From Adhaeribacter pallidiroseus (GTDB taxonomy: Bacteria; Bacteroidota; Bacteroidia; Cytophagales; Hymenobacteraceae), in contig NZ_QASA01000001.1 in the NCBI RefSeq assembly GCF_003340495.1, positions 5,828,001-5,892,000 on the forward strand: 64,000 nucleotides of DNA, given 5' to 3'. The notes under the pieces are model-generated. The model saw nothing but the letters and a program-made list of their open reading frames with translations, searched no databases and was not told the DNA's origin. Below, one piece after another: positions 920 to 25,885 of this stretch (the stretch's first letter is position 1; every line of letters starts with the position of its first letter). A program made the translations under genes and the position numbers.

Positions 920-978
920 AACTCCTCCGTACATAATGCGGATAACCGTATGTTATGTTGTTTATAAAATAGTTAGCA
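916..978 (+). other. attC-like site 0 (upstream of the lprI-like cassette)
   Basis: The left heptamer is ATACAAC (916-922) and the right core is GTTAGCA (972-978), identical to the right core at 25309-25315. The interior contains CATAATGCGG and CCGTATGTTATG, which can fold on each other. The next ORF starts 9 nt after the right core, the same spacing as in the other cassettes. The folding here is less clean than in the other sites. Confidence 0.45.
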
Positions 979-987
979 GCAAAAAAT

Positions 988-1479
988 ATGAGACAAATAT
1001 TGACTATGTTATTTGTTCTGATTTCCTCAGTTGTCTATTCTCAAAACAATGAGATTATAACAAATCAAAAGGCACAGCTTTTAGATAGATATAATTTTGA
1101 TGATGATTGTGGAAATGGAGCGCAGCAAGATATAAATATTTGTTTAGGCAAAGCAATTGAAAAACTTGAAAAGTTATTGTTTGACAAATATAGATGCTTA
1201 ATTTCTTCACTTGATATGGCCATCCAAAAGAATTCCTTAGAAGATAAACAACAGGCTTCAGAGTATAAGAAAATCAAAAAAGCTATTATTACCTCTCAAA
1301 AGACTTTTGAAAAATTAAAAAAGCAAAATACTATTTTTTACCTATCTTATTATAGAGAAGGAACAGAGCGTCCCATGTTTTTCGGTTTGAGTAAAATACA
1401 AGACTTAAAAGATAGACTCAATCGATTAGATGATTATTTGGAGACATTGGAACAAGATAACGTAATTAAATGTAAATGA
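988..1479 (+). CDS. Secreted LprI/DUF1311-like protein (cassette ORF)
   Basis: 163 residues with a signal peptide (about residues 1-18, cleavage after VYS). The mature part has the pattern C-x3-AQQDINICLGKAIEKLEKLLFDKY, resembling the lysozyme-inhibitor LprI N-terminal domain (DUF1311): two Cys, a Q-Q-(D/E)-x-N motif, then a D/K-rich helix with LLFDKY at the usual D..LN..Y position. Family members are periplasmic or envelope proteins; inhibitor activity is not demonstrated for most. The gene is AT-rich relative to the flanks. It lies 9 nt after one attC-like core, and its stop is 8 nt before the next attC-like site, which is what a promoterless integron cassette looks like. The LprI assignment is by motif only. 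Confidence 0.6.
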   Translation: MRQILTMLFVLISSVVYSQNNEIITNQKAQLLDRYNFDDDCGNGAQQDINICLGKAIEKLEKLLFDKYRCLISSLDMAIQKNSLEDKQQASEYKKIKKAIITSQKTFEKLKKQNTIFYLSYYREGTERPMFFGLSKIQDLKDRLNRLDDYLETLEQDNVIKCK

Positions 1480-1493
1480 AGTTTCTGCTGCTA

Positions 1494-3337
1494 ATCGAGT
1501 AGACGGCCCCACCAGTGTTGGCTGATGGGGAGCGCCTCTCACACCACTGTACGTACGGGTCTCGTATACAGCGGTTCGTTAAGTTGGGGGGCTACTTGTT
1601 TGTAGTAATCGAACAACGATTCATAACCTTTCTTGACCAACCGTTTCAGCGTGATAGTGGTCACCAGGATGGGGCTTTGCGCTACTGCCCAGCCCCCTTT
1701 CCGGGTCTGGCTCCAGGCATAGGCTTCCCCTTTTGAGACGCCTAATCGGATCAGGTTCTTTCTTTTCCGCTCGGGTTTCTTCCAGTCGTGCCAGATGCAA
1801 TGGCGCAGCCGGTTTCTGAGCCAACTATCCACTTGCTTTAACTTCCCCTGAATGCTGGCTAGACGAAAGTAGTTTACCCAGCCTCGCTGCACTTCCTTGA
1901 GTTGCTGAACGCGCTGCTCAAAGGCACTGGGCGTGGTCTTGCGGGTAATCCCTTTCAGGTTCTGCTTCAGCCTGGCCCAAGCCTTTTCTGCTACCACCAA
2001 CTGGTATTTACCTTTCTCCCCTTTCCGGTAAGTGGGTACAAACCGGTAGCCTAGTATCTGAAAATCTACGGGTCGTCTAATGCCGCTCTTTTCCCGGTTG
2101 ATGGGTAGCCTTAGCTTATTCTTCAGGAACAGGAAAAGGTTGTTGCCCACCTGCCGGGCCTCCGACTCACTTTTGGTATAAACACTAAAGTCATCGGCAT
2201 AGCGCACGTACCGCAAGCCTTGCTTTTCCAACTCTTTATCCAGCTCGTGAAGCAGAATATTGGAGAGCAGCGGACTCAACGGACTGCCCTGTGGTACCCC
2301 TTTCCGGCGTTTGGTTAACTTTCCCCCAATAAGGATAGGGGCCCGAAGCCATTTGCGGATCAGGCGCAGCGTGAGCGGGCATTTTACTTTCTGGTATACC
2401 AGTTGCAGGAGCAGGCAGTGCTCTACTTCATCAAAGAAGCTTTTCAGGTCCATATCGACAATATGCTGATAGCCTTCATTAATGTTCTTCTGGGCTTGCC
2501 ACACCGCCTGATGGGCGTTGCGGTTGGGCCGGAAGCCGTAGCTGTACTCTTTGAACTCCAGCTCGAAAAGCGGGGCTATGGCTTGGTTGACTGCTTGTTG
2601 TAGCAGCCGGTCGGTTACGGTAGGAATGCCTAACCGGCGCTTCTGGCCGTTGCTCTTAGGTATTTCTACCCCTAAGATGGGTAGAGGAAAGTACTGGCTG
2701 CTCCGGATAGCCGTAACTAAGGCCTCCTGATTTACTTGCAGATGCCCAGCTAGTTCAAGTACGGACATACCGTCTACGCCGGCTGCCCCTTGGTTAGCCT
2801 GCACTTGCCGGTAGGCTAGCAGCAGGTTGCCCCGGTGCAATACTTTCTCAATCATCCTACTTTCTACTTTATCTGTAATCCCTGTTCCGCTTACGCTAAG
2901 GCTGGCCAGGCCTCCTTACCACATTTGGAACAACTTCACGTTCGGCCCTTCGTCATCTTGTGAGACCTCCGCAGCGCTTACGGCTCGTTTCCTGATGGCT
3001 ACTATGGCTTCTGCTGACTTCTCTCTTACCAACCCGTGGCCGAGAGACCTCCCCAGGTAAGAGCATATTCCTTCCTCCGATTCCTGGTACATCTACCCAC
3101 TAGTACTTGTTGGTCAGGAGCTTTGCAAAGAGGTGCTTGCTTACCCGCACTAATGGGCCTCTTATGTACTTTCTGTTCGTCAGTACCGGATTTTGTAGTC
3201 CCGCTTTCTTCCCTGCTTATCTCACGATAAACCAGCTTGCGGCTTACTAACAGGCTGCACCAACTCGCCTGTAAGGGTCTTGCACCCTCTGGAATAATTT
3301 GGTACCTTTCAGTACCAGATGCCCATACTGGGCGCAC
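1494..3337 (-). mobile_element. Group II intron, copy 1 (antisense to the cassettes)
   Basis: On the minus strand the element starts GTGCGCCCAGTATGGGCATC at 3337, a textbook group II 5' end, and finishes CTACTCGAT at 1494. It carries a reverse transcriptase/maturase ORF (2855-1539), a ~480-nt 5' segment for domains I-III, a domain V-like hairpin (about 1541-1576: ACCGCTGTA pairing with TACAGTGGT around a GAGA turn) and a domain VI hairpin (1507-1530: CCCCACCAG/CTGATGGGG on the plus strand). Identity with copy 2 runs over 1491-3347, including ~10 nt of 5' exon. The end points are inferred from consensus termini and the copy comparison. The element lies inside an attC-like site, as known for group IIC-attC introns. 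Confidence 0.88.
1539..2855 (-). CDS. ltrA: Group II intron-encoded reverse transcriptase/maturase (copy 1)
   Basis: 438 residues. RT blocks run from about residue 50: GIPTVTDRLLQQAV, YGFRPNRNAHQAV, VDMDLKSFFDEV (132-143, first catalytic Asp), GVPQGSPLSPLLSN (186-199) and RYADDF with the catalytic YADD at 219-222. A maturase (domain X) region follows (about 310-420: GWVNYFR, then a basic LRNRLRHCIWHDWKKPERKRK stretch). There is no HNH/En domain, in keeping with the short intron-encoded proteins of class C and related introns. The protein splices the intron RNA and reverse transcribes it into new sites. The last residues (YTRPVRTVV) are a reading of domain V, so the ORF overlaps the ribozyme core, as in many annotated copies. 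The sequence is identical at protein level to copy 2. Confidence 0.95.
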   Translation of the reverse strand: MIEKVLHRGNLLLAYRQVQANQGAAGVDGMSVLELAGHLQVNQEALVTAIRSSQYFPLPILGVEIPKSNGQKRRLGIPTVTDRLLQQAVNQAIAPLFELEFKEYSYGFRPNRNAHQAVWQAQKNINEGYQHIVDMDLKSFFDEVEHCLLLQLVYQKVKCPLTLRLIRKWLRAPILIGGKLTKRRKGVPQGSPLSPLLSNILLHELDKELEKQGLRYVRYADDFSVYTKSESEARQVGNNLFLFLKNKLRLPINREKSGIRRPVDFQILGYRFVPTYRKGEKGKYQLVVAEKAWARLKQNLKGITRKTTPSAFEQRVQQLKEVQRGWVNYFRLASIQGKLKQVDSWLRNRLRHCIWHDWKKPERKRKNLIRLGVSKGEAYAWSQTRKGGWAVAQSPILVTTITLKRLVKKGYESLFDYYKQVAPQLNEPLYTRPVRTVV

Positions 3338-3397
3338 ACCACACCTATACGGCAGCTGTGCCACCGCAAAGCCCAGTACGTTAGGGGTATCCTTAAA

Positions 3398-3754: not shown

Positions 3755-3763
3755 AAGTACTCC

Positions 3764-3817
3764 CACCAACAACACCTTTACTGTAGCTACGCCACCTCAA
3801 AGCCCAGAACGTTGTGC
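3764..3817 (+). other. attC-like site, uninterrupted
   Basis: Left heptamer CACCAAC (3764-3770), then AACACCTTTA, the small palindrome TGTAGCTACG, CTCAAAGCCCAGAAC, and right core GTTGTGC (3811-3817). Nearly the same box order as the site at 25757-25809. Last recognisable member of the left cluster. Confidence 0.65.
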
Positions 3818-4146
3818 GGCATTTAAATAAATAAAAATAGTACGGCCACAATTTCGGATGTTTAGAAGAAAATGCCAGAATTAAGCAGATTCTATGGAAA
3901 TACAATTTGCATTTTTGCGAAAAACCTTAATTTACCTTATTTTTTTGCAAAATACGGAAAGTATATACGTATAATTGCTATTAAAAGTGGCTAATGACTA
4001 GAAGGTGAACTGCCAAGAAGAGCATTGCGGTTAGTTGAAGACTGAACCGAATTACCTAAAAAGAACTAATGATTAATTATGGTTTACAAAGTATGATGGC
4101 CAAACTACGCTCTAAAACCGCGCTGATTTAGCTTTAAAATTGTTTT
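3818..4146. other. Spacer without recognised features
   Basis: AT-rich sequence between the last attC-like site of the left cluster and the IS630-type element. No ORF with a plausible start and no strong palindrome seen. Confidence 0.5.
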
Positions 4147-5485: not shown

Positions 5486-8400
5486 TTACTTATTCAGGAG
5501 TAGTTTCTGTGTGTTTTGTTTGGTGGGGGTTTGCAGTTGCAGCAAATACATACCGGCGGCTTGTTTCCCCGCTTGCCATTGCACCTGGTACGTTTGCTTG
5601 GCTTTGGCTTCTCCCCGGAATAAAGTAGCAATTTCCCGGCCTTGACCATCGAGCACGCGCACGCTGGCAGCCTGAGTTTGCGGCAGGGTAAAACGAACGG
5701 TTACCTGCTCCTGGAACGGATTTGGATACGCGAGGAGCGGGGTAAGTTCTGCAGATTCTTCTGGCGTGGTAGCCGTTCTGGCTGCTACCCGTGCGTTGTT
5801 GGTTGGAACCACTTTTATGAGCCAGTAATCGGTACCGCCCTGGCTGGGTTGCGTCCGGTCGCCGCTCGCTCCGGAGTTGGAACGACCGCCCAAGAGCAAA
5901 CCGCCGTCTTTTGTTTGGGTTACGGTACGGAGTTCGTCTTCGCCGCTGCCACCGGCGCGTTGGTCCATTACCAGGTTCCCTTGCTCGTCTACTTCTACTA
6001 CCCAGTAATCGCCGCTGCCCTGGCTCGCCTGGGTTTTATCGCCGCTTACGCCGGAGTAAGAAGTGCCGGCCAGCAGGTAATGGCCTTGCTCGGTGTAAGT
6101 ACTGGCGCTTAGATTATCATCCTTGTCGCCACCAAAACCTTTATCCCAAAGCTTAGTACCGTTTGCATCTATTTTAATTAACCAGTAATCGCGACCGCCC
6201 CGGCTAGCCTGGCTTTTATCACCGCTGGCCCCGGAAGTGCTGTAGCCCGCCAGATAAAGGTTGTCGCCATCACTGTGTCGTACCGATACGGCATAGTCCT
6301 GGCCGGTGCCGCCGTAGGTTTTTTCCCAGAGTAAGTTGCCGTCTTTATCGGTTTTTACGGCCCAGTAATCTACATCGCCGCGGCTGGCTTGGGTTTTATC
6401 GCCGCCCTGGCCAGAGCTAGAACCGCCGCCCAGGAAAAATCCTCCGTCGCGGGTTTGGGTAAAGCCGCCCAGCCTATCGGCACCGGTGCCGCCATAACGT
6501 TTGTCCCAGATTTTAGTGCCGGTACTGCTTATTTTTACCAGCCAATAATCGTAATTGCCCTGGCTAGCTTGCGTTTTGTCGCCGCTCACGGGAGAATTGC
6601 TGTAACCACCCAGCACGTATTCGCCCGAGCTCAGCTGAATTACTTTTTCCAGTTCGTCATTGCCGCTGCCACCCAAGGTTTTATCCCAAAGTTTATTACC
6701 TAGTTTATCTGTTTTTACCAGCCAGTAATCCCGACCGCCTTGGCTAACTTCAGTTTTATCGCCTTTTTTGCCCGAGAAAGAACTGCCGGCTAGTAAATAC
6801 CCGCCATCCTGGGTTTGAATTACGCGGTTGAGATAATCATTATTCGCACCGCCGTAACTTTTCTCCCATTGTTTTAGGCCGTTTTTATCGCTCTTTACAA
6901 TCCAGTAGTCGTTCCGGCCCTGGCTCCATTGGGTTTTATCGCCGCTGATGTTTGAATCGGTATAGCCTCCGGACAAGTAGCCGCCATCCGTAGTTTTAAT
7001 AACATCGGCAAAGTTATCGGTGCCCGTGCCGCCGTAACGCATGTTCCAGTTAGCCGACGGGGGTGGGGTTTCATCGAGCACCTGCACAAGCCAGAAATCT
7101 CCGCGGGACGCAAAAGGATAGGTAACGGTATCGCGGGGAGCTTCGGTTTTATCATCGCCGATAAGGCCGTTGGATGTGCCACCCAGCAGGTAACCGCTAT
7201 TGGCAGTAGGTATTACGGCTCCCAGCACATCGTCATCGCGGCTGCCCAGGGTACGATCCCACAGCCTGGTGCCGGCTTCGTCTATTTTTAAAATCCAGTA
7301 ATCCCTTTCGCTTCTTCTACCGCTCCAAAATTGATCACTATAATAGTACAGAAACCTTTCGCCGCCCCCGCTGGCATTCTCACTTTTATCCCCGCCTTTA
7401 TCGGAGTCAGAAGTGCCCGCTAATAAGTAATTCCCGTCGGGGGTTGCCCGGATAGCCGCTAGTTCGGAATTGCCGGTTAAGTAGGTACCTATGTCGAACA
7501 CTTTTTCGGATCGGATGCCCCCGTAGGTTTTATCCCAAACTTTAATGCCTTTACTGTTTAATTTTACAATCCAGTAATCGCTCAAGCGGGTATAACTGTT
7601 TCCACCGATATTTTTATCGGTTTTGTCGCCGCCTTGTTCCGCGTCGGAGTAGCCCCCGATTAAGAAGTTGCCATCCGGGGTAACTAATAAACTGGTTAGT
7701 ACCGAACTACCTAAATCTACCTGGCACTTGGCCGGATCATCTTCAAAACACTCATCGTAGGCATAGGTTTCGGTTAGGCCCCCGAGGGTTTTATCCCATT
7801 GTTTATTCCCGTTTTCCTGCAGGCGCAGCACCCAGTAATCGGCCTGGCCGCGGCGCGCTTCGCTCTTATCGCCGGATTTACTGGAAGCCGACGTGCCGCC
7901 GATTAAATAGCCGCCGCCCGGTACCAGGGCCAGGGCCACTAGTCTATCGGCCTCCGCTCCGCCATACGTTTTATCCCACAATTTGGCGCCGTTGGCGTCG
8001 ATTTTTAAAATCCAGTAATCGCTGCGGCCTTTACTGCCCTGGCTTTTATCGCCGCCCGTACCCGAGAAAGAGGTACCGCCGAGTAAAAAGCCGCCGTCCG
8101 GGGTACTAATCAATGCGGTTAATTTATCGGCCTGGTTGCCGCCGTAGGTTTTATCCCAAAGTTTATTGCCTGCCGCATCAATTTTTAAAATCCAGTAGTC
8201 GCCGCTGCCTTTGCTGCCCTGACTTTTGTCGCCGCTGTTGCCGGAGTAAGAAGTGCCGCCCAGTAGGTAACCACCGTCCGGCGTAGCCAGCAGGATAGTT
8301 AAACTATCGGCCTGATTGCCCCCGTAGGCTTTATCCCAGAGTTTTGCGCCTTGGTTGTTTAGCTTGGTGATCCAGTAATCGCTGGCACCCTGGGTGGCGC

Positions 8401-10123
8401 TGCTTTTATCGCCGGTTTTACCGGATTCGGAGTAACCCCCCGCCAGATAGCCGCCATCCGGCGTTGGAATTAAAGCCAGCAAGGCCTCGCGATTAAATCC
8501 GCCCAAGGTACGGTCCCACTGTTTCACAATGGTTGGTCTGGCTTCTACGGGAATAAACAGGTCGGTAACGGTGGCATTAAACTGGGCATTGCCGGGTTGA
8601 TACGCCTGAATATGCACGGTATTGGCTCCGGAAACGGTAAGCTCATTGCCTTGCACCGTAGCGGGGCCAGATACTACCCGGAAAGATACCGGCAACCCGG
8701 AACTACTGGTAGCTTCCAGCACAAAAGGCGCATCGCCGAGGGTGCGGGTAAGCAAATTAGAATTGCCGAAAGTAATGGTTTGATTTTTCCGGACGGTGTT
8801 GTCTAATTTTATAACCCAAAAATCCGAGCTGCCTTTGCTGTTTTGCGTTTTGTCTTTGGTAATATCGGAAGAAGAATTACCACCCAAAAGATAGCCACCA
8901 TCCGTTGTTTGCTGCACCGAGGTTAAACCATCGGAGCCAGCGCTGCCTAAAGCTCTGTCCCATTCTTTAGTACCATCTGCTTTTACTTTTACAACCCAGT
9001 AATCGGTGTCGCAGGATATATCGTCGACGGTACAAGCGCCTTGGTAGCCTTCGGTTTTATCGCCGCTGATGCCCGAATTAGAATAGCCTCCTAAAAGGTA
9101 ACCGCCATCCGAGGTTTGCTCAAAATCGGTTAAGACTTCCAATTGATCGGCTCCAAAACGGAGGGCCCAAATTTCCGAACCATCGGCCTTTAACTTTGTT
9201 AACCCGTAATCACCACTTCCGTAAGCCACTAAAATTTCGCCGTTTTGGGTAGTTTTAATCTTAACTGCTTCTACCCAGTCTTTTTCCCAGCCAACGGTGT
9301 GGTCGGGCTTTATTTTAATGAGTTTCCGGCCTTGCTCGTATATTTCGCCGGCCAGCAGCAAGCCTCCGTCCGGGGTGCTGGCGAAGGCCGTTAAGTTACT
9401 GCTGTTTCTGCCGCCGTAGGCTTTGTCCCATATTTTGGTACCATCGGGTTTTATTTTTACAACCCAAAAATTACCATCTGACCGGGGAGCGGTTCTATCG
9501 CCCACAATGCCGGATACGGAGTTTCCTCCCAGTAAATAATTCCCATCCGGGGCTTCCTGGATTGATACTAAATAGTCGTAACTGCTACCGCCGTAATTTT
9601 TTTCCCAGATTTTGGTACCGGCGGCATCCAGTTTCACGATCCAGTAGTCCGCGGCTCCCCGGTCGGGCGAGGTTTTGTTGCCGCTCACCGCCGAAAGCGA
9701 AGTGCCGCCGAGCAAAAAGCCGCCATCCGGAGTCAGGACCAGGGATTTTAAATCATCGTAGTCAGAGCCGCCAAAGGTTTTGTCCCAGGCTTTCGAACCG
9801 TCGGCGTTTAGTTTCACCACCCAGTAATCGGTGGTAAGATTGCCGTATTTGTCTTTTTTGCCTTGATTATTCTGGGATTTGTCGCCGCTGATACTCGAAG
9901 AAGAATTACCCGCCAGAATATAGCCGCCGTCCGGAGTTTGTTTGGCGGTTATTAAAGCATCGCCTGATGAGCCACCAATGGTTTTATCCCAAACTTTATC
10001 TTGGGCAGAAGTAGCGGTAGTAAACCCCAGCAAAAGAAATAAGCTAAAGTAGTAAGAGCGCCACCTATAATGTAAGACCCGATTTGTAGAAACCAGAAAG
10101 GTAAAAGATACTTGTAATTTCAT
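5486..10123 (-). CDS. Giant T9SS-exported protein with ~21 tandem beta-propeller-like repeats
   Basis: 1545 residues. An N-terminal signal peptide ends near TTATSAQ (about residue 40). I count about 21 copies of a 60-70 residue repeat with consensus DYW(V/I)(V/L)K(I/L)D..G.K.WDK.(Y/L)GG...D.L....[17 protein letters not shown](S/T)Q.S.G; copies 4 and 5 are degenerate. Around residues 490-570 the array is interrupted by an Ig/MBG-like domain (QTITFG...). The last ~80 residues form a type IX secretion sorting domain ([16 protein letters not shown] ... [11 protein letters not shown] ... KLLL). Family knowledge: such proteins are exported through T9SS and anchored or released at the cell surface. 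The repeats resemble those of large cell-surface propeller proteins; ligand unknown. A single gene followed by its own terminator. Confidence 0.85.
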
Positions 10124-19201: not shown

Positions 19202-19253
19202 AGCTAACGGGTGTGGTATAAACACACCTAAGGTGTTTAGCAGGTAGTTAGGG
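19202..19253 (+). other. attC-like site at the left edge of the right cluster
   Basis: Left heptamer AGCTAAC (19202-19208), interior palindrome GGTGTG...CACACC, then right core GTTAGGG (19247-19253). Followed by the IS5-type element and the first ORF of the cluster. Confidence 0.6.
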
Positions 19254-19266
19254 GTAATATATAATA

Positions 19267-20165
19267 GACTTCTTTCAAAAGTACTTAGATAGTGTCGTAA
19301 TTAGCAATGGCAGCAAAGAGGTTAAAGCGTAAGCCAAAGCGCTTTCGACGATTTCTATACTTGGTAGCAAAAATTTTGAATCGTTTAAGAAAACCAAACA
19401 CGTTTTCAATCTTGATTCGCTGGGAAGACAACGCTCGGTTTTGTTGCTGGTCTTGCCGCGTTAAAGGATAATGTTTGGAGGCCTTCTTCGGGGTATGGGC
19501 TTGCGGGATCAACTTTTTGATTCCTTGATAACCCGAATCCGCTAATAGCAGGATAGGAGTTGGGAGTTTAAGCTGGCTGCATTTAAAAAGTTGGAAATCA
19601 TGCACTGCTCCTTTGGCAAAATGCGTACAAATGATTTTTCCGCTCTTCTTATCCACTATCATTTGTGTTTTCAGATGATGTTGTTTCTTTTTAGCCGAGT
19701 AGTAGCGTCTTTGTTTTTTTGGGGACGTTCGATTCTTGTCTCCGTAGCATCTACCAGTACTACTTGGTAACTGATGGAACTTTGGAGAAGGGCTTTTTTG
19801 CCAGGTAAGCTAAATTCCCCGGATTGGAGTAAAAGATTTTCCGCTCGTGTAATCAAGCGGAAGGCCGTGGCTTCACTCACTTGGTAGCTCTGAGCGATGT
19901 GAAAATAGGTCCGGTATTCCCGATTATATTCTAACATCATCAATACTTGATCGGCCTCCGACAAGCGACTAGGACGACCGAGAACTTTCTTGTTTTTGGC
20001 TATTTGTTCGCTTAAAACTGCTTTCATGTGCTCAAAGGTGGCTTTATGCACCCCTGTTAAGCGCCGGAAAAGAGCTTCGCTTAAAAAGCGGATTTGTTCG
20101 TATTTTGTCACCATACCGCAAAGTTCTGCTATTTACTTAATATCTAATTACTTTTGAAAGAAGTC
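19267..20165 (-). mobile_element. IS5-family (IS427-like) insertion sequence
   Basis: About 900 bp. Terminal inverted repeats GACTTCTTTCAAAAGTA (left) and the complement at the right end, flanked by TA on both sides (19265-19266 and 20166-20167), as for IS427-group targets. It encodes a two-frame transposase on the minus strand. It is inserted between an attC-like site and the next cassette ORF. Confidence 0.8.
19285..20114 (-). CDS. IS5-family transposase, two overlapping frames with probable programmed -1 frameshift
   Basis: Frame A (20114-19671, 147 codons) has the N-terminal DUF4096-like/HTH region (GVHKATFEHMKAVL ... GRPSRLSEADQVLMML ... YQVSEATAFRLITRAE) and runs into the first catalytic Asp (VLVDATETRIERPQKN). 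The second frame (to 19285) carries KTQMIVDKKSGKIICTHFAKG, the second Asp (LLLADSGYQG) and the C-terminal R-I-K-I-E-N-VFGFLKRF with the catalytic Glu. The frames join at a heptamer A AAA AAC (complement of 19719-19713), inside an A7 run, in the correct phase for -1 slippage. The continuation reads QRRYYSAKKKQHHLKTQMIVD. IS427-group elements are known to use such frameshifting. The element appears intact. Confidence 0.8.
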
Positions 20166-20181
20166 TAATAAAAAATTAGGA

Positions 20182-20538
20182 ATGAAAGAGGCAGTAATTT
20201 CTGTAATGATAGTTGGTGCATTCATAGTTGCCTCCTACTACCTTCATAAGTACATGCGGAATATAAAATCTATAATTTGGTTCTTATCCTTGATTCTTAT
20301 GTATATAGTATTGCTTTACGGCTACTTAGAAATAATTAATAAAATACACCAATATCTTAGAGATAGAGGCATTTATATAGAATTTGGACATGCGAGTATT
20401 TTATTATTAGAACTGGGTGTAATCTGTTTGTTTTTTGCCTTAATAAATATTGTTTGGGCGGCTGTTAGTAGATATAGGAATTTACAAAATAAAAATACAT
20501 CCCCTAATCGAGTAGACGGCCCCACCAGTGTTGGCTGA
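20182..20538 (+). CDS. Small polytopic membrane protein of unknown function (cassette ORF, 3' end altered by intron 2)
   Basis: 118 residues as read. Three to four hydrophobic segments: AVISVMIVGAFIVASYYL, IIWFLSLILMYIVLLYGYL and ASILLLELGVICLFFALINIVWAAV, ending in a short basic tail. No family recognised. The last ten codons (NRVDGPTSVG) lie within the group II intron. With the intron removed the frame would end ...TSPNHT-stop inside the attC-like site. The intron is antisense to this gene and cannot splice from its mRNA, so the altered tail is what would be made. AT-rich like the other cassettes. Its original upstream junction has been separated from its attC-like neighbour by the IS5 element. 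Confidence 0.55.
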   Translation: MKEAVISVMIVGAFIVASYYLHKYMRNIKSIIWFLSLILMYIVLLYGYLEIINKIHQYLRDRGIYIEFGHASILLLELGVICLFFALINIVWAAVSRYRNLQNKNTSPNRVDGPTSVG

Positions 20539-22350
20539 TGGGGAGCGCCTCTCACACCACTGTACGTACGGGTCTCGTATACAGCGGTTCGTTAAGTTGG
20601 GGGGCTACTTGTTTGTAGTAATCGAACAACGATTCATAACCTTTCTTGACCAACCGTTTCAGCGTGATAGTGGTCACCAGGATGGGGCTTTGCGCTACTG
20701 CCCAGCCCCCTTTCCGGGTCTGGCTCCAGGCATAGGCTTCCCCTTTTGAGACGCCTAATCGGATCAGGTTCTTTCTTTTCCGCTCGGGTTTCTTCCAGTC
20801 ATGCCAGATGCAATGGCGCAGCCGGTTTCTGAGCCAACTATCCACTTGCTTTAACTTCCCCTGAATGCTGGCTAGACGAAAGTAGTTTACCCAGCCTCGC
20901 TGCACTTCCTTGAGTTGCTGAACGCGCTGCTCAAAGGCACTGGGCGTGGTCTTGCGGGTAATCCCTTTCAGGTTCTGCTTCAGCCTGGCCCAAGCCTTTT
21001 CTGCTACCACCAACTGGTATTTACCTTTCTCCCCTTTCCGGTAAGTGGGTACAAACCGGTAGCCTAGTATCTGAAAATCTACGGGTCGTCTAATGCCGCT
21101 CTTTTCCCGGTTGATGGGTAGCCTTAGCTTATTCTTCAGGAACAGGAAAAGGTTGTTGCCCACCTGCCGGGCCTCCGACTCACTTTTGGTATAAACACTA
21201 AAGTCATCGGCATAGCGCACGTACCGCAAGCCTTGCTTTTCCAACTCTTTATCCAGCTCGTGAAGCAGAATATTGGAGAGCAGCGGACTCAACGGACTGC
21301 CCTGTGGTACCCCTTTCCGGCGTTTGGTTAACTTTCCCCCAATAAGGATAGGGGCCCGAAGCCATTTGCGGATCAGGCGCAGCGTGAGCGGGCATTTTAC
21401 TTTCTGGTATACCAGTTGCAGGAGCAGGCAGTGCTCTACTTCATCAAAGAAGCTTTTCAGGTCCATATCGACAATATGCTGATAGCCTTCATTAATGTTC
21501 TTCTGAGCTTGCCACACCGCCTGATGGGCGTTGCGGTTGGGCCGGAAGCCGTAGCTGTACTCTTTGAACTCCAGCTCGAAAAGCGGGGCTATGGCTTGGT
21601 TGACTGCTTGTTGTAGCAGCCGGTCGGTTACGGTAGGAATGCCTAACCGGCGCTTCTGGCCGTTGCTCTTAGGTATTTCTACCCCTAAGATGGGTAGAGG
21701 AAAGTACTGGCTGCTCCGGATAGCCGTAACTAAGGCCTCCTGATTTACTTGCAGATGCCCAGCTAGTTCAAGTACGGACATACCGTCTACGCCGGCTGCC
21801 CCTTGGTTAGCCTGCACTTGCCGGTAGGCTAGCAGCAGGTTGCCCCGGTGCAATACTTTCTCAATCATCCTACTTTCTACTTTATCTGTAATCCCTGTTC
21901 CGCTTACGCTAAGGCTGGCCAGGCCTCCTTACCACATTTGGAACAACTTCACGTTCGGCCCTTCGTCATCTTGTGAGACCTCCGCAGCGCTTACGGCTCG
22001 TTTCCTGATGGCTACTATGGCTTCTGCTGACTTCTCTCTTACCAACCCGTGGCCGAGAGACCTCCCCAGGTAAGAGCATATTCCTTCCTCCGATTCCTGG
22101 TACATCTACCCACTAGTACTTGTTGGTCAGGAGCTTTGCAAAGAGGTGCTTGCTTACCCGCACTAATGGGCCTCTTATGTACTTTCTGTTCGTCAGTACC
22201 GGATTTTGTAGTCCCGCTTTCTTCCCTGCTTATCTCACGATAAACCAGCTTGCGGCTTACTAACAGGCTGCACCAACTCGCCTGTAAGGGTCTTGCACCC
22301 TCTGGAATAATTTGGTACCTTTCAGTACCAGATGCCCATACTGGGCGCAC
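20507..22350 (-). mobile_element. Group II intron, copy 2 (antisense to the cassettes)
   Basis: Same element as copy 1, shifted by exactly 19,013 bp and in the same orientation. Shared sequence is 20504-22360. I noticed two base differences (20801 A versus 1788 G; 21506 A versus 2493 G), both synonymous in the RT gene. The termini, domain V and domain VI hairpins match copy 1. Near-identity implies recent movement or gene conversion. Confidence 0.88.
20552..21868 (-). CDS. ltrA: Group II intron-encoded reverse transcriptase/maturase (copy 2)
   Basis: 438 residues, identical in protein sequence to copy 1: RT blocks with YADD at 219-222 and GVPQGSPLSPLLSN at 186-199, a maturase domain, and no endonuclease domain. 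Both copies are intact, so either could drive mobility of both introns. Introns lacking the endonuclease generally use single-stranded or folded DNA targets and nascent strands for priming, which fits insertion next to a DNA hairpin such as attC. Confidence 0.95.
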   Translation of the reverse strand: MIEKVLHRGNLLLAYRQVQANQGAAGVDGMSVLELAGHLQVNQEALVTAIRSSQYFPLPILGVEIPKSNGQKRRLGIPTVTDRLLQQAVNQAIAPLFELEFKEYSYGFRPNRNAHQAVWQAQKNINEGYQHIVDMDLKSFFDEVEHCLLLQLVYQKVKCPLTLRLIRKWLRAPILIGGKLTKRRKGVPQGSPLSPLLSNILLHELDKELEKQGLRYVRYADDFSVYTKSESEARQVGNNLFLFLKNKLRLPINREKSGIRRPVDFQILGYRFVPTYRKGEKGKYQLVVAEKAWARLKQNLKGITRKTTPSAFEQRVQQLKEVQRGWVNYFRLASIQGKLKQVDSWLRNRLRHCIWHDWKKPERKRKNLIRLGVSKGEAYAWSQTRKGGWAVAQSPILVTTITLKRLVKKGYESLFDYYKQVAPQLNEPLYTRPVRTVV

Positions 22351-22413
22351 ACCACACCTAAAGCACACTAAAGCGTGCCTTAGCCAAGTACGTTGTAGGT
22401 AATTTAACGAAAT

Positions 22414-22914
22414 ATGAAAATCTTCATTTTAGTTATATTAGGATTGTTGGCTTCTACCAGTCTGTACAGTCAAGACAAATGCGACCTATCGTCTCTGTCA
22501 CAAGACGACAAGATGCTGATGCAGAGTTTCTGGACCAATTTTAAATCTGCAATCACTAAAAAGGACAAAGTAAAGCTGGCAGCTCTCTGTAACTTTCCCT
22601 TTACCTGTAGCTTTTGCCAATATATAGATCATCCTAACTCCAACCAACCTTATGTGGATGTAACAGAAAAGGGATTTCTTAAATATTACTACAAGATGTT
22701 TTCGGATGAGAGATTAATGAAAGAAGTTGCCAAGCACACCTTACCGGATGAATTTATTCTTACTACGCATTTTAACACAGTTGACAATAAATGCTCCTAT
22801 AGTTTTGCATATGGAGTTCGAGAAAATGAAAAGCACCCAGGACGACAGTATTTTTTCGATTTGCAAAAGGTCGGTAGTAAATTCAAAATTACCGGTGCTT
22901 GGACCTTGCTTTAA
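22414..22914 (+). CDS. Secreted cysteine-containing protein of unknown function (cassette ORF)
   Basis: 166 residues. A clear signal peptide MKIFILVILGLLASTSLYSQ is followed by about 146 residues with Cys in DKCDLSS, a CNFPFTCSFC cluster and DNKCSYSF. The sequence has the helix-plus-curved-sheet look of NTF2/SnoaL-like secreted proteins (MQSFWTNFKSAITKKDKVKLAALCNFPF, then a C-terminal YFFDLQKVGSKFKITGAWTL strand pair). That resemblance is an impression, not a family match. The start lies 15 nt after an attC-like core and the stop is 17 nt before the next, so the gene has no room for its own promoter. Confidence 0.6.
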   Translation: MKIFILVILGLLASTSLYSQDKCDLSSLSQDDKMLMQSFWTNFKSAITKKDKVKLAALCNFPFTCSFCQYIDHPNSNQPYVDVTEKGFLKYYYKMFSDERLMKEVAKHTLPDEFILTTHFNTVDNKCSYSFAYGVRENEKHPGRQYFFDLQKVGSKFKITGAWTLL

Positions 22915-22931
22915 GAATAAAGAAAAATTAT

Positions 22932-22997
22932 CTACAACATTGCGTAAACGCCAATTGCGGCCCATGGCCTCGTCGTCGTTTAAATTAACCGTTGTGC
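22932..22997 (+). other. attC-like site
   Basis: Left CTACAAC (22932-22938), paired TAAACG...CGTTTA arms around a GC-rich centre, right core GTTGTGC (22991-22997), the same core as at 3811. Confidence 0.65.
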
Positions 22998-23020
22998 GTT
23001 ATTTATAACAAAGTAAAGAT

Positions 23021-23791
23021 TTGGAAAGAGCAACTGAAGTAGTAATAGTAGATTCAGAAGAACACATACCTTCCAATGAATTTATCAGCTCTATTCCCAG
23101 AGAAAAGTTACTTAAGCTATTATTTAAATCTCCTGTTCTTCAATACCGGGAAGCGATTGGTAATAGATTGAAGGATGAACTTACTGGTTTCCAAATTAGC
23201 ATCCATACGATTGAACCTGAAATCAACATAGCCAAACTTATAACAGACCAAGAGATTGAGGAACATCAAGCCTTTTTCGAACAATGCGCAAAAGATTATC
23301 GCGCATTAGGAGAAAAATTAATCTTTAGGTTAGCTAAAAAGCTAAATATTGAACTATATAAAGATTTTCCATTGGGTACTTTCTGGGGCCTAAATATGCC
23401 ATCTGGGAAAATGGGTGAATGGCAGTATTACGTTCATGGCTTTCATTGCTGCTTTGAAAATAAGGTTACCCATCAAATTATTGAAGTGCCGTTAGTTTTT
23501 AGCTATGAATTTGGTGACTTAGACCCATACTTCTTCACTGGATTCATAAAATCCACCAGTTCTTATTATCCCTTGCCTGTTGCTATTTATGATAACTACG
23601 CTGATGGTTTAAAGATATTGGATAAAATGTTCTCTCTTGGAAAGTTTGAAAAAATCCCTTCCAATGTAGGCAACCACTTCGGTATAGTCGTAGCGGATAG
23701 AGAGAAAGTAGAAATCACTCCTTATAAAGAAGAAAATTTCAAAAGTAAAAAACCAAAATTTAATTTATGGAGGTTTTTGGGTCTAAAATAA
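23021..23791 (+). CDS. Uncharacterised cytoplasmic protein (DUF6896-like impression; cassette ORF)
   Basis: 256 residues from a TTG start; no signal peptide or membrane segment. The C-terminal half contains FWGLNMPSGKMGEWQYYVHG, FHCCFEN, a strand IIEVPLVFSYEFG and DLDPYFFTGFIKS. This W-x-Y-x-x-H-G ... C ... EV ... D-x-(Y/W)-x-F pattern reminds me of DUF6896 and related immunity-like domains, but I cannot confirm it. The N-terminal half is helical. The stop is 8 nt before the next attC-like heptamer. A stand-alone cassette protein; an immunity or anti-toxin role is speculation. Confidence 0.55.
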   Translation: MERATEVVIVDSEEHIPSNEFISSIPREKLLKLLFKSPVLQYREAIGNRLKDELTGFQISIHTIEPEINIAKLITDQEIEEHQAFFEQCAKDYRALGEKLIFRLAKKLNIELYKDFPLGTFWGLNMPSGKMGEWQYYVHGFHCCFENKVTHQIIEVPLVFSYEFGDLDPYFFTGFIKSTSSYYPLPVAIYDNYADGLKILDKMFSLGKFEKIPSNVGNHFGIVVADREKVEITPYKEENFKSKKPKFNLWRFLGLK

Positions 23792-23799
23792 AAACGTAC

Positions 23800-23868
23800 G
23801 CACAACAAGGTGCATAAGCCATGCTTCGGCCGACTGCCTTCGCCGTCGTTTATACTAGACCGTTAGGC
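23800..23868 (+). other. attC-like site with consensus right core
   Basis: Left GCACAAC (23800-23806), GGT/ACC inner boxes, GCATAAGC pairing with GTTTATAC, right core GTTAGGC (23862-23868), a perfect match to the attC consensus GTTRRRY. The interior GTGCATAAGCCATGCTTCGG recurs at the site 24532-24601. Confidence 0.75.
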
Positions 23869-23950
23869 GGCATTTAGGAAAATAATTTTTTAGGGTTAAA
23901 AAATCAAATAAGTTTACTTCCTTTTGGCGTTGCTACCGTAATACGAAAGC

Positions 23951-24232
23951 ATGATAATATCTTTTGGCTCCAAAGAGACAGAAAAGATTTGGAACGGAGA
24001 ACGAGTTGCTAAACTTCCTATTGAAATTCAGACAATTGGCAGGCGTAAATTAAGGATGTTGAACAACTCTCAAAATATAGCAGACTTGCGGATTCCCCCT
24101 TCAAACCGATTAGAGAAGCTGTCTGGAAATTTAAAAGAATTTTATAGTATCCGAATTAATGACCAGTGGAGAATCATTTTCCAATGGAACAACGGACAAG
24201 CCTCAGAAGTAGAAATTAGTGATTATCATTAA
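23951..24232 (+). CDS. higB: HigB/RelE-family toxin (mRNA interferase)
   Basis: 93 residues, the usual HigB length. RelE/ParE fold signature: MIISFGSKETEKIWNGE start, KLPIEIQTIGRRKLRMLNNSQ, DLRIPPSNRLEKLSGN, and the terminal FYSIRINDQWRIIFQWNNG, with the basic RI..QWRI strand that forms the active site. Family members cleave mRNA on the ribosome. It precedes higA with only 5 nt between them, the toxin-first order of the HigBA type. The 82 nt between the preceding attC-like core and the start is the largest such gap in the cluster, so this cassette may carry its own promoter, as toxin-antitoxin cassettes in integrons usually do. Confidence 0.9.
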   Translation: MIISFGSKETEKIWNGERVAKLPIEIQTIGRRKLRMLNNSQNIADLRIPPSNRLEKLSGNLKEFYSIRINDQWRIIFQWNNGQASEVEISDYH

Positions 24233-24237
24233 AGAAC

Positions 24238-24537
24238 ATGGAAAAATTACCAAATATACACCCAGGAGAAATATTGCAGGAGGAATTTCTTGTTCCCCTC
24301 AACATTACCGCTTACCGACTTGCTAAAGATATTAATATTCCTCAAACCAGAATATCGGAAATTTTAAAAGGTAATAGAAGAATCACAGCCGACACCGCAT
24401 TGAGGTTGAGTTACTACTTTGGGAATTCTCCTAAATTTTGGCTCGGACTGCAGGACGACTATGATTTGGAAGAAGAAAAAACCAACAAGCAACATGAGTT
24501 GGAAAGTATAAGGAAGTTTGAGAAAAACGTCGCCTAA
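24238..24537 (+). CDS. higA: HigA-family antitoxin (XRE-type HTH)
   Basis: 99 residues. Classic HigA/VapI pattern: NIHPGEILQEEFLVPLNIT at the N terminus, then the helix-turn-helix AYRLAKDINIPQTRISEILKGNRRITADTALRLSYYFG and NSPKFWLGLQDDYDLE. It binds and neutralises HigB and represses the operon. The stop codon overlaps the left heptamer of the following attC-like site (GCC TAA C), so the coding region ends inside the recombination site. The pair stabilises neighbouring DNA by post-segregational killing, a role proposed for toxin-antitoxin cassettes in large integron arrays. Confidence 0.92.
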   Translation: MEKLPNIHPGEILQEEFLVPLNITAYRLAKDINIPQTRISEILKGNRRITADTALRLSYYFGNSPKFWLGLQDDYDLEEEKTNKQHELESIRKFEKNVA

Positions 24538-24601
24538 CGGTTAGTGCATAAGCCATGCTTCGGCCGACGGCCTGGCACGTCTCATGCACTAAATGTTCAG
24601 T
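24532..24601 (+). other. attC-like site with consensus left heptamer
   Basis: GCCTAAC (24532-24538) matches RYYYAAC exactly. The arms TTAGTGCAT / ATGCACTAA form a perfect 9-bp stem. The right core is GTTCAGT (24595-24601), two positions off consensus. The higA stop lies within the left heptamer. Confidence 0.7.
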
Positions 24602-24609
24602 AATTAAAA

Positions 24610-25245
24610 TTGAAGCAAATTATATTACTTCTGTTCTTTGTCAGTTTGAAAAGTTTTTCACAAGTAGAAGTTCGTGGAATTTCAAAAATTGAATTAGCTG
24701 GGATTCAATCCGATTCAATTAACCTATCTGCAAATAAAGAATTTGAAAAACGAATAAAGCTAAAGTCAATTGAGAAATCTGAAAATGAAGTTGAAATAAG
24801 ATTCTATGAATTACTATCCTTAAGTAACACTAGGAACCTTAAAGTATTGGTTTTAAAGAATGATATTTGGAAAGCCACTGAATTTTCTGAAATCAATAAT
24901 CCAAGATTAAAAATAAGTAAGTTTGCCTTAGATGCTCCAAATGGATTTGAATTAGTTATTCAAAAGCTCTTTCAGAATAAATTAACCAAGCTGCCGAGCC
25001 AAGAAGCACTTAAGCCAAGGATGAAGAAATATGGTCAAACCGATCCTAAGAGAGGGAGAGCAGAAAAAGTCTTAATTGTAAATGACGGGAAAAGCTACAC
25101 TATAGAATTTAAAATTGGAGATAAATTCAGGATTTATAATTTTAGTAACCCTGAAACTTATGCTAACTTTTATAATGATGTGCAGGAGTTAAAAGACTAT
25201 GTAGCAATCAAAAATATATTTACTGAAGAGTTAAAAAGAAAATAA
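24610..25245 (+). CDS. Secreted protein of unknown function (cassette ORF)
   Basis: 211 residues from a TTG start, 8 nt after the attC-like core. Signal peptide KQIILLLFFVSLKSFSQ. The mature part is basic and rich in Lys, Glu and Ile, with repeating short strands (VEIRFYELLSLSNTRNLKVLVLKNDIW). The C-terminal third reads NDGKSYTIEFKIGDKFRIYNFSNPETYANFYNDVQELKDYV, which looks like a small beta-sandwich or cystatin-like domain. No family recognised. Strongly AT-rich. The stop is 4 nt before the next attC-like heptamer. Confidence 0.55.
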   Translation: MKQIILLLFFVSLKSFSQVEVRGISKIELAGIQSDSINLSANKEFEKRIKLKSIEKSENEVEIRFYELLSLSNTRNLKVLVLKNDIWKATEFSEINNPRLKISKFALDAPNGFELVIQKLFQNKLTKLPSQEALKPRMKKYGQTDPKRGRAEKVLIVNDGKSYTIEFKIGDKFRIYNFSNPETYANFYNDVQELKDYVAIKNIFTEELKRK

Positions 25246-25249
25246 CTAC

Positions 25250-25315
25250 TGGCAACACAATGTATACAAAACCCTTGCTTCGCTACAGGATTTGCATACA
25301 CGCGGACCGTTAGCA
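25250..25315 (+). other. attC-like site with long hairpin
   Basis: Left TGGCAAC (25250-25256), arms TGTATACAAA / TTTGCATACA (one mismatch) continuing inwards, right core GTTAGCA (25309-25315). Confidence 0.7.
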
Positions 25316-25326
25316 TAAATTATTGA

Positions 25327-25752
25327 ATGAAAATAGAAGAATTACATAAAACACTCCAGAAGTTGGGCGTACCAGGAGATAGATATTACCTCCATGGGCT
25401 TTATGGCTCCACAGATGATGATGAAAAATATGCCCTTGTAATAAAAAAGGGAAAGTACACTATCGAATATGAAGTGTATTATCGAGAAAGAGGTGGGAAA
25501 CATTCAATTCTAACTTTTACGGAAGAGGATAAAGCTTGCGAATACTTTTTTAGACAAGTAAAAGATAGTTGGACACAAGAGCAAATACAAAAAATAGATG
25601 GATTCAGTGGAATGACAGTTAACGAGCGACTTTATATTAGTGAACTCATGGATGAGTTCGCTAAATGTAAGGCTGTTAACAAGACAAGAGCAGTGCATAT
25701 TTTAAGAATGTTGCAAATTGACGAGCCATCTATTAAAGAAATTATAAAATAA
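25327..25752 (+). CDS. Small cytoplasmic protein of unknown function (cassette ORF)
   Basis: 141 residues, no signal peptide, starts 11 nt after an attC-like core and stops 4 nt before the next. The N-terminal half (LGVPGDRYYLHGLYGSTDDDEKYALVIKKGKYTIEYEVYYRERG) is a mixed alpha/beta unit of the kind seen in small bacterial immunity proteins; the C-terminal half is helical (MTVNERLYISELMDEFAKCKAVNKTRAVHILRMLQIDE). I do not recognise the family; the immunity-protein resemblance is only general. No promoter space upstream. Confidence 0.55.
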   Translation: MKIEELHKTLQKLGVPGDRYYLHGLYGSTDDDEKYALVIKKGKYTIEYEVYYRERGGKHSILTFTEEDKACEYFFRQVKDSWTQEQIQKIDGFSGMTVNERLYISELMDEFAKCKAVNKTRAVHILRMLQIDEPSIKEIIK

Positions 25753-25756
25753 CTGG

Positions 25757-25809
25757 TGCCAACAACACCTTCACGGCAGCTATGCCGCCGCAAAGCCAAA
25801 CCGTTAGCT
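25757..25809 (+). other. attC-like site, right edge of the cluster
   Basis: Left TGCCAAC (25757-25763), AACACCTTC, the perfect hairpin CGGCA-GCTA-TGCCG, CAAAGCC, right core GTTAGCT (25803-25809). Beyond it the sequence changes to ordinary chromosomal genes. Confidence 0.7.
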
Positions 25810-25885
25810 TTGATACTATTCGTATATTAAACTCATTCAAGACACGAAATCACCGGTAAAGCTGTAAATGTTACGAATTTGCTTA

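Follow-up and report, generated by a model that had tools for sequence, protein, structure and literature searches.

A mobile group IIC intron of Adhaeribacter pallidiroseus, very probably specialised on the integron attC sites of Bacteroidota

The published IIC-attC introns lie antisense to the cassettes, in the R'' element of the attC bottom strand, where the target reads TTGT/T (PMC7923331). Integrons have been recorded as rare in the phylum Bacteroidota: a survey of Bacteroidetes reported only cassette-less integrases, and then one complete integron, in Salinibacter (PMC9024848). An IntI-specific domain of the integron integrase has been called necessary and is used to define IntI (PMC9668308). 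No open-access paper joining IIC introns, attC and Bacteroidota was found; an earlier mention is possible, as the two founding IIC-attC papers lie outside this coverage. The window analysed here, a whole stretch of 64,000 nt from Adhaeribacter pallidiroseus, carries two copies of a group II intron. The intron features are as follows (throughout, a slash marks a cut or a boundary).

1494-3337, minus strand: group IIC intron copy 1, 1844 nt, complete by four-copy alignment, antisense in an attC-like site.
20507-22350, minus strand: copy 2 of the group IIC intron, located in another attC-like site and 2 nt different from copy 1.
1539-2855, minus strand: intron-encoded RT/maturase of class C, 438 aa, with RVT_1 and GIIM domains and a TIGR04416 match.
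3131-3134, minus strand: EBS1 (ACCU, intron nt 204-207) in copy 1, which pairs with IBS1 GGT according to covariation in 73 introns.

The ends at 1494-3337 are exact on the minus strand, since four genomic copies align over the identical 1844 nt and differ beyond it. These four full copies (two in the window and two elsewhere) are accompanied by a diverged remnant of 76%. The pairwise differences among the four copies are only 0-3 of 1844 nt, so the spread of the intron in this genome is recent, and the element may be active at present.

The first-pass annotation had proposed that classification by RNA structure and RT phylogeny would decide whether the intron belongs to a class known to use attC sites or terminators. 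The RT comparisons, together with an Rfam match to the ribozyme, assign it to such a class, class IIC. The Rfam model RF02001 (group II D1-D4-3) matched both window copies over its full length, at 3061-3231 of the minus strand with 109.7 bits for copy 1, and the intron ends, GTGCGCC...CTACTCGAT, are IIC-like. The intron RT scored 381 bits against TIGR04416 (cut-off 300). The Pfam search identified RVT_1 and GIIM alone in the 438 aa, with no endonuclease (En) domain found. Among solved structures, phmmer ranked GsI-IIC (6ar1) best with 346 bits, followed by the E. rectale IIC enzyme (331) and LtrA (141). The RT also groups with IIC introns in the RT tree, and the closest annotated relative of the intron, with 90% RT identity, lies on a plasmid of Adhaeribacter swui. 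The intron is thus classified from its sequence as IIC with an En-less class C RT.

The sites that bear on its insertion in the window are the following.

1487-1493, plus strand: attC site 1 to the left of the intron (R'' TGCTA/AC), where the cassette at 988-1479 ends; the bottom strand reads GT/TAGCAGC.
3338-3388, plus strand: attC site 1 to the right of the intron, with R' GTTAGGGG at 3380-3387; model R1 matches 3333-3388 of the minus strand with 54.6 bits, as a site of its training set.
3763-3819, minus strand: empty attC-like site (IBS1 TGT) at the end of the next cassette; 64.7 bits with model R1, also a training-set site.
22346-22400, minus strand: the part of attC site 2 that borders copy 2 on its right; 50.3 bits with model R1, again a training-set site.

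The four-copy alignment and the rejoined flanks confirmed that the intron lies exactly inside an attC-like site, as had been claimed. The rejoined sites read CTA-AC-CACACC and the empty ones at 3767 and 25760 read CCA-AC-AACACC, just as first described, and in both window copies the bottom strand is cut as GT/TAGnn within the complement of the left AAC heptamer. The other two copies are cut at the same point, GT/TGGGC and GT/TATGC. Rejoining the flanks of the copies yields attC-like elements of the form YAAC...GT/TRRRY, antisense to genes. All four full copies interrupt GT/TRRRY within the R'' of attC-like hairpins, the diverged remnant also sits in an attC-like site, and no copy was found at an unrelated target. 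The chance expectation for four copies in attC-like sites is 0, as the genome of 6.4 Mb contains 36 matches, each ~57 nt long, which cover ~0.03% of it. Position and strand are identical to those of the published IIC-attC introns (compared with PMC7923331), as the annotation had suggested. Thus both outcomes that would have spoken against its interpretation, another intron class and copies at unrelated targets, were looked for and neither was seen, which supports that interpretation.

The 9-nt 5' flank AGGTGTGGT (in intron sense) is common to all four copies, with T(A/G)NN on the 3' side. This identity might suggest that one intron-bearing attC was copied along with moving cassettes, with no independent transposition into attC. 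However, the four occupied sites have different R'' sequences and different upstream genes, their hairpin arms fall into at least three types, and empty GGT sites having the same 5' flank exist, so that copying with cassettes is a very improbable account. The shared bases GGT are explained by EBS1, which requires them.

Covariation between intron and exon located this EBS1 element. Nucleotide 206 in domain I pairs with exon position -3 in 71 of 73 aligned introns (T:A in 62, G:C in 9), although the EBS1 change at this nucleotide represents only about three independent events. Nucleotide 207 pairs with exon -4 in 31 of the 46 introns whose exon -4 is other than T, versus 15.6 after shuffling, and this pairing fails where exon -4 is T. 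These two covariations place EBS1 at intron nt 204-207. The EBS1 of the window intron, ACC, complements the IBS1 GGT, which is present at 4/4 occupied versus 2/16 empty sites examined in the genome (p=0.003). The base difference between occupied and empty sites, listed in the first-pass annotation, is explained by this match, as the empty sites have TGT. The GT/T of the published TTGT/T is kept; exon -3 is G in the intron's own copies, with matching EBS1, and T in most relatives. As in other IIC introns, IBS1-EBS1 is short (3-4 bp), and a conserved hairpin takes the place of IBS2.

Relatives of the intron were collected at 80 named loci, nearly all in Bacteroidota (Pontibacter, Flavobacterium, Chryseobacterium, Labilibaculum, Algoriphagus, and others), and at further loci. 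GT/TR was found at 58 of 62 distinct relatives' sites having both flanks. The suggestion that the intron family is suited to Bacteroidota cassettes holds, in that relatives across the phylum insert alike. Two kinds of site were distinguished, one of ~55 nt, to which the window sites belong, and one of ~130 nt; an AAC lies 122-124 nt upstream of the cut in 23 sites, with a null maximum of 9. Several relatives (L031/L049 in G146, L078, and L092) are head-to-tail introns, in which the 3' end CTACTCGAT directly abuts the next GTGCGCCC or GTGTGCCC. Three intron copies lie ~2.2 kb apart in apparently a single array (L061, L063, and L065; G400 C1:251201-256927). Some relatives (L078, L088, L091, and L115) come from MAG contigs assigned to cyanobacterium, Micrarchaeota, Williamsia, and Cloacimonadota; these contigs are probably misbinned Bacteroidota.

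Within an integrated cassette array, the next cassette contributes the TTRRRY of R'. Therefore the R' and R'' of one site, which come in part from different cassettes, need not match; this accounts for the null result of the cognate R'/R'' pairing test (5.49 vs 5.43), and for the outcome of an attC search of the window with strict heptamers, which returned mostly noise and was abandoned. At 35 of 76 intron sites, the cassette side carries an inverted copy of the R'' 9-mer at a distance of 150-1500 nt (300 swaps: mean 0.59, maximum 4), and such recurrence at the cassette start marks real cassette boundaries. Likewise, in arrays found by the attC model, cassette starts match their own R'' at 113/150 positions, versus 60.3 when shuffled; many start/R'' pairs show a recurrent A/G mismatch after the tenth base. 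Many intron targets are thus true cassette ends, with boundaries at G/TT. About half of the 76 intron sites fail the cassette-start test, possibly owing to cassette reshuffling, decay, or sites other than attC.

The sites show the attC end consensus RYYYAAC...GTTRRRY and the R/L-box bottom-strand fold, with heptamers that often depart beyond GTT[AG]. Ten short sites share a common fold of R box, spacer, and inner stem, in which compensatory changes exceed those of shuffles and slid partners. The covariation score is 0.446 for the short sites (0.211 shuffled) and 0.600 for the long sites (0.180 shuffled); in 17-19 pairs of the 19-bp stem of the long sites, at least one sequence has both bases altered. 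Single short sites folded as DNA generally showed no gain over shuffles (of six, two were no better than the shuffle mean and one was clearly better), so the fold rests on comparison, thermodynamic folding of single sites being uninformative. The compensatory changes support a predicted bottom-strand fold for both the short (~55 nt) and the long (~130 nt) sites.

It might be argued that this is an ordinary terminator-targeting IIC intron, that the cassette-end hairpins are terminators, and that their attC likeness is incidental, since the usual insertion point of IIC introns follows a stem-loop that lies upstream of IBS1 (PMC4424553; PMC7923331). However, a T5 run was found at only 4/62 sites of the attC clade, versus 10/13 sites of other IIC introns (p=3e-7). 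Insertion occurs within the 3' stem arm, at GT/TRRRY, and R'' matches the cassette start. The terminator explanation is largely refuted and is extremely unlikely.

Horizontal transfer of the known proteobacterial IIC-attC lineage into Bacteroidota would account for the common class, target type, strand, and cut position, and the 3' exons of the proteobacterial L057 and L058, TAGAA and TAGAC, are also alike. However, RT identity to the proteobacterial IIC-attC introns is only 37-38%. The RT tree places the Bacteroidota introns in one clade and the class 1 integron introns (L057, L058, and L221) in another; forcing both groups together costs 82 log-likelihood units (AU p=6e-5). Most of the other IIC introns in the tree, which are placed between the two attC groups, sit after terminator T-runs. 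Transfer is therefore unlikely. The Bacteroidota introns are placed by their RT sequences in a lineage outside the known IIC-attC clade, and this lineage is phylum-wide in Bacteroidota. Given the separate clades, the resemblance to the known IIC-attC introns is probably convergent. Because most other IIC introns follow terminators, attC targeting probably arose twice; two origins are the simplest reading of a tree that is unrooted and whose proteobacterial IIC-attC group comprises three distinct sequences only.

Taken together, we are highly confident that this is a mobile group IIC intron specialised on Bacteroidota integron attC sites. The excised intron RNA with its RT would reverse-splice into the folded, single-stranded bottom strand of attC. 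Recognition may have two parts: the attC hairpin, which would substitute for the terminator stem that other IIC introns recognise, and 3-4 bp of EBS1-IBS1 together with T at +1, at GT/TRRRY inside R''. The cDNA synthesis is probably primed from replication forks, because the intron RT has no endonuclease. Reverse splicing into the bottom strand would place the intron antisense to the cassettes, and would let it spread as a parasite of cassette arrays.

The cassettes and attI-like heads in the window are the following.

960-980, plus strand: attI-like head with the start of the cassette that holds copy 1 (TAG/TTAGCAGC); this start is identical to the cassette's own R''.
988-1479, plus strand: cassette ORF upstream of copy 1, LprI-like (PF07007, 26.8 bits).
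19235-19254, plus strand: attI-like head GTTTAGCAGGTAG/TTAGGGG belonging to the array in which copy 2 lies; the start matches the R'' at copy 2.
20182-20538, plus strand: cassette ORF before copy 2, from the ORF list, its frame now extending 32 nt into the intron.
22414-25811, plus strand: cassette array with an attC-like site after each cassette, from ORFs, with sites found by reading and by model R1 at 25756-25811.
22414-22914, 23021-23791, 23951-24537 (HigBA-like pair), 24610-25245, and 25327-25752, plus strand: the cassettes of this array.

A HigA match (TIGR02607) supports the HigBA-like toxin-antitoxin cassette at 23951-24537. An IS element at 19262-20170, which carries ORFs for a DDE transposase and is bounded by inverted ends of 30 nt, is inserted between the cassette start and the ORF upstream of intron copy 2. 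The window also contains, at 5486-10123, an ORF for a 1545-aa protein whose repeats have a 180-nt period. Beyond the window, the covariance model of the short attC identified 36 sites in the genome at E<=0.1, and gave matches in 11 other genomes of 19 searched. About ten further attI-like heads (11 places counted) are dispersed in the genome before cassettes, with no integrase nearby; they read GATAACCGGANNAACTCCGTTTATC and GTTTANCNRNTAG/TTR.

One array of this genome is headed by an integrase. At C1:1326000-1344000 (L189, 10250-14976), a tyrosine recombinase is followed by a co-directional attI-like site and five cassettes with attC. Against TIGR02249 this array-side integrase scored 204 and 201 bits (cut-off 265) with a hole at 180-241, and the IntI-specific domain of ~38 residues is missing from it. 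The gene is frameshifted at a T8 run in this genome; in the relative G006 it is intact, encodes 480 aa, and heads a large array. Similar recombinases occur in 41/118 genomes of the order, and an inverted cassette-start pair lies downstream of 20/29 such recombinases (loci L232-L260), versus upstream of 3/29. In G121 and G050, an intron copy lies ~10 kb from an integrase without the IntI domain. The relative G003 carries a canonical IntI (L019, 9169-10158, minus strand; 284 bits with TIGR02249). The canonical IntI of G003 and G006 was initially taken as the likely integrase and then set aside, as no cassettes were seen beside that of G003.

The host arrays are judged from these features to be integron-like and of an unusual sort. 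We consider it reasonably probable that Bacteroidota have a widespread integron type of their own, with an Xer-like integrase lacking the IntI domain, long-armed attC, and dispersed attI-like heads, and that a separate IIC lineage came to parasitise its attC sites through independent evolution. These host integrons may prove a larger discovery than the intron, and their array-side integrase makes the need for the IntI domain in folded attC recombination testable. Moreover, the introns mark attC sites without attC-finding software, and therefore reveal cassette arrays in a phylum where integrons are recorded as rare. The suggested two adoptions of attC hairpins as intron targets would mean that targeting by hairpin and short IBS1 can switch between terminators and recombination sites.

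Compared with known systems, the group IIB introns in integrons and CALINs of halophiles also lie within cassette arrays; however, their RTs are of classes CL1 and E, and no attC-hairpin specialisation has been described for them (PMC7923331). The terminator-inserting IIC introns (GsI-IIC, B.h.I1, and O. iheyensis type) are alike in ribozyme class, RT type, and a hairpin before a short IBS1; they sit after T-runs, whereas the Bacteroidota attC clade does not. The canonical IntI integrons likewise have attC-bounded cassettes, a cassette start complementary to R'', and an array headed by a tyrosine recombinase and an attI-like site. The arrays described here differ in an array-side integrase that lacks the IntI stretch and is co-directional with the cassettes, and in many attI-like heads dispersed without integrase. 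The IIC-attC introns of Proteobacteria (S.ma.I2 type; L057, L058, and L221) are the closest in behaviour: both groups have an En-less class C RT, a GT/T core, and a short IBS1, and both enter the attC bottom strand in R'', antisense to the cassettes. The present intron and its near relatives differ from them in using an IBS1 of GGT, rather than the published TTGT, and in the Bacteroidota cassettes that they occupy.
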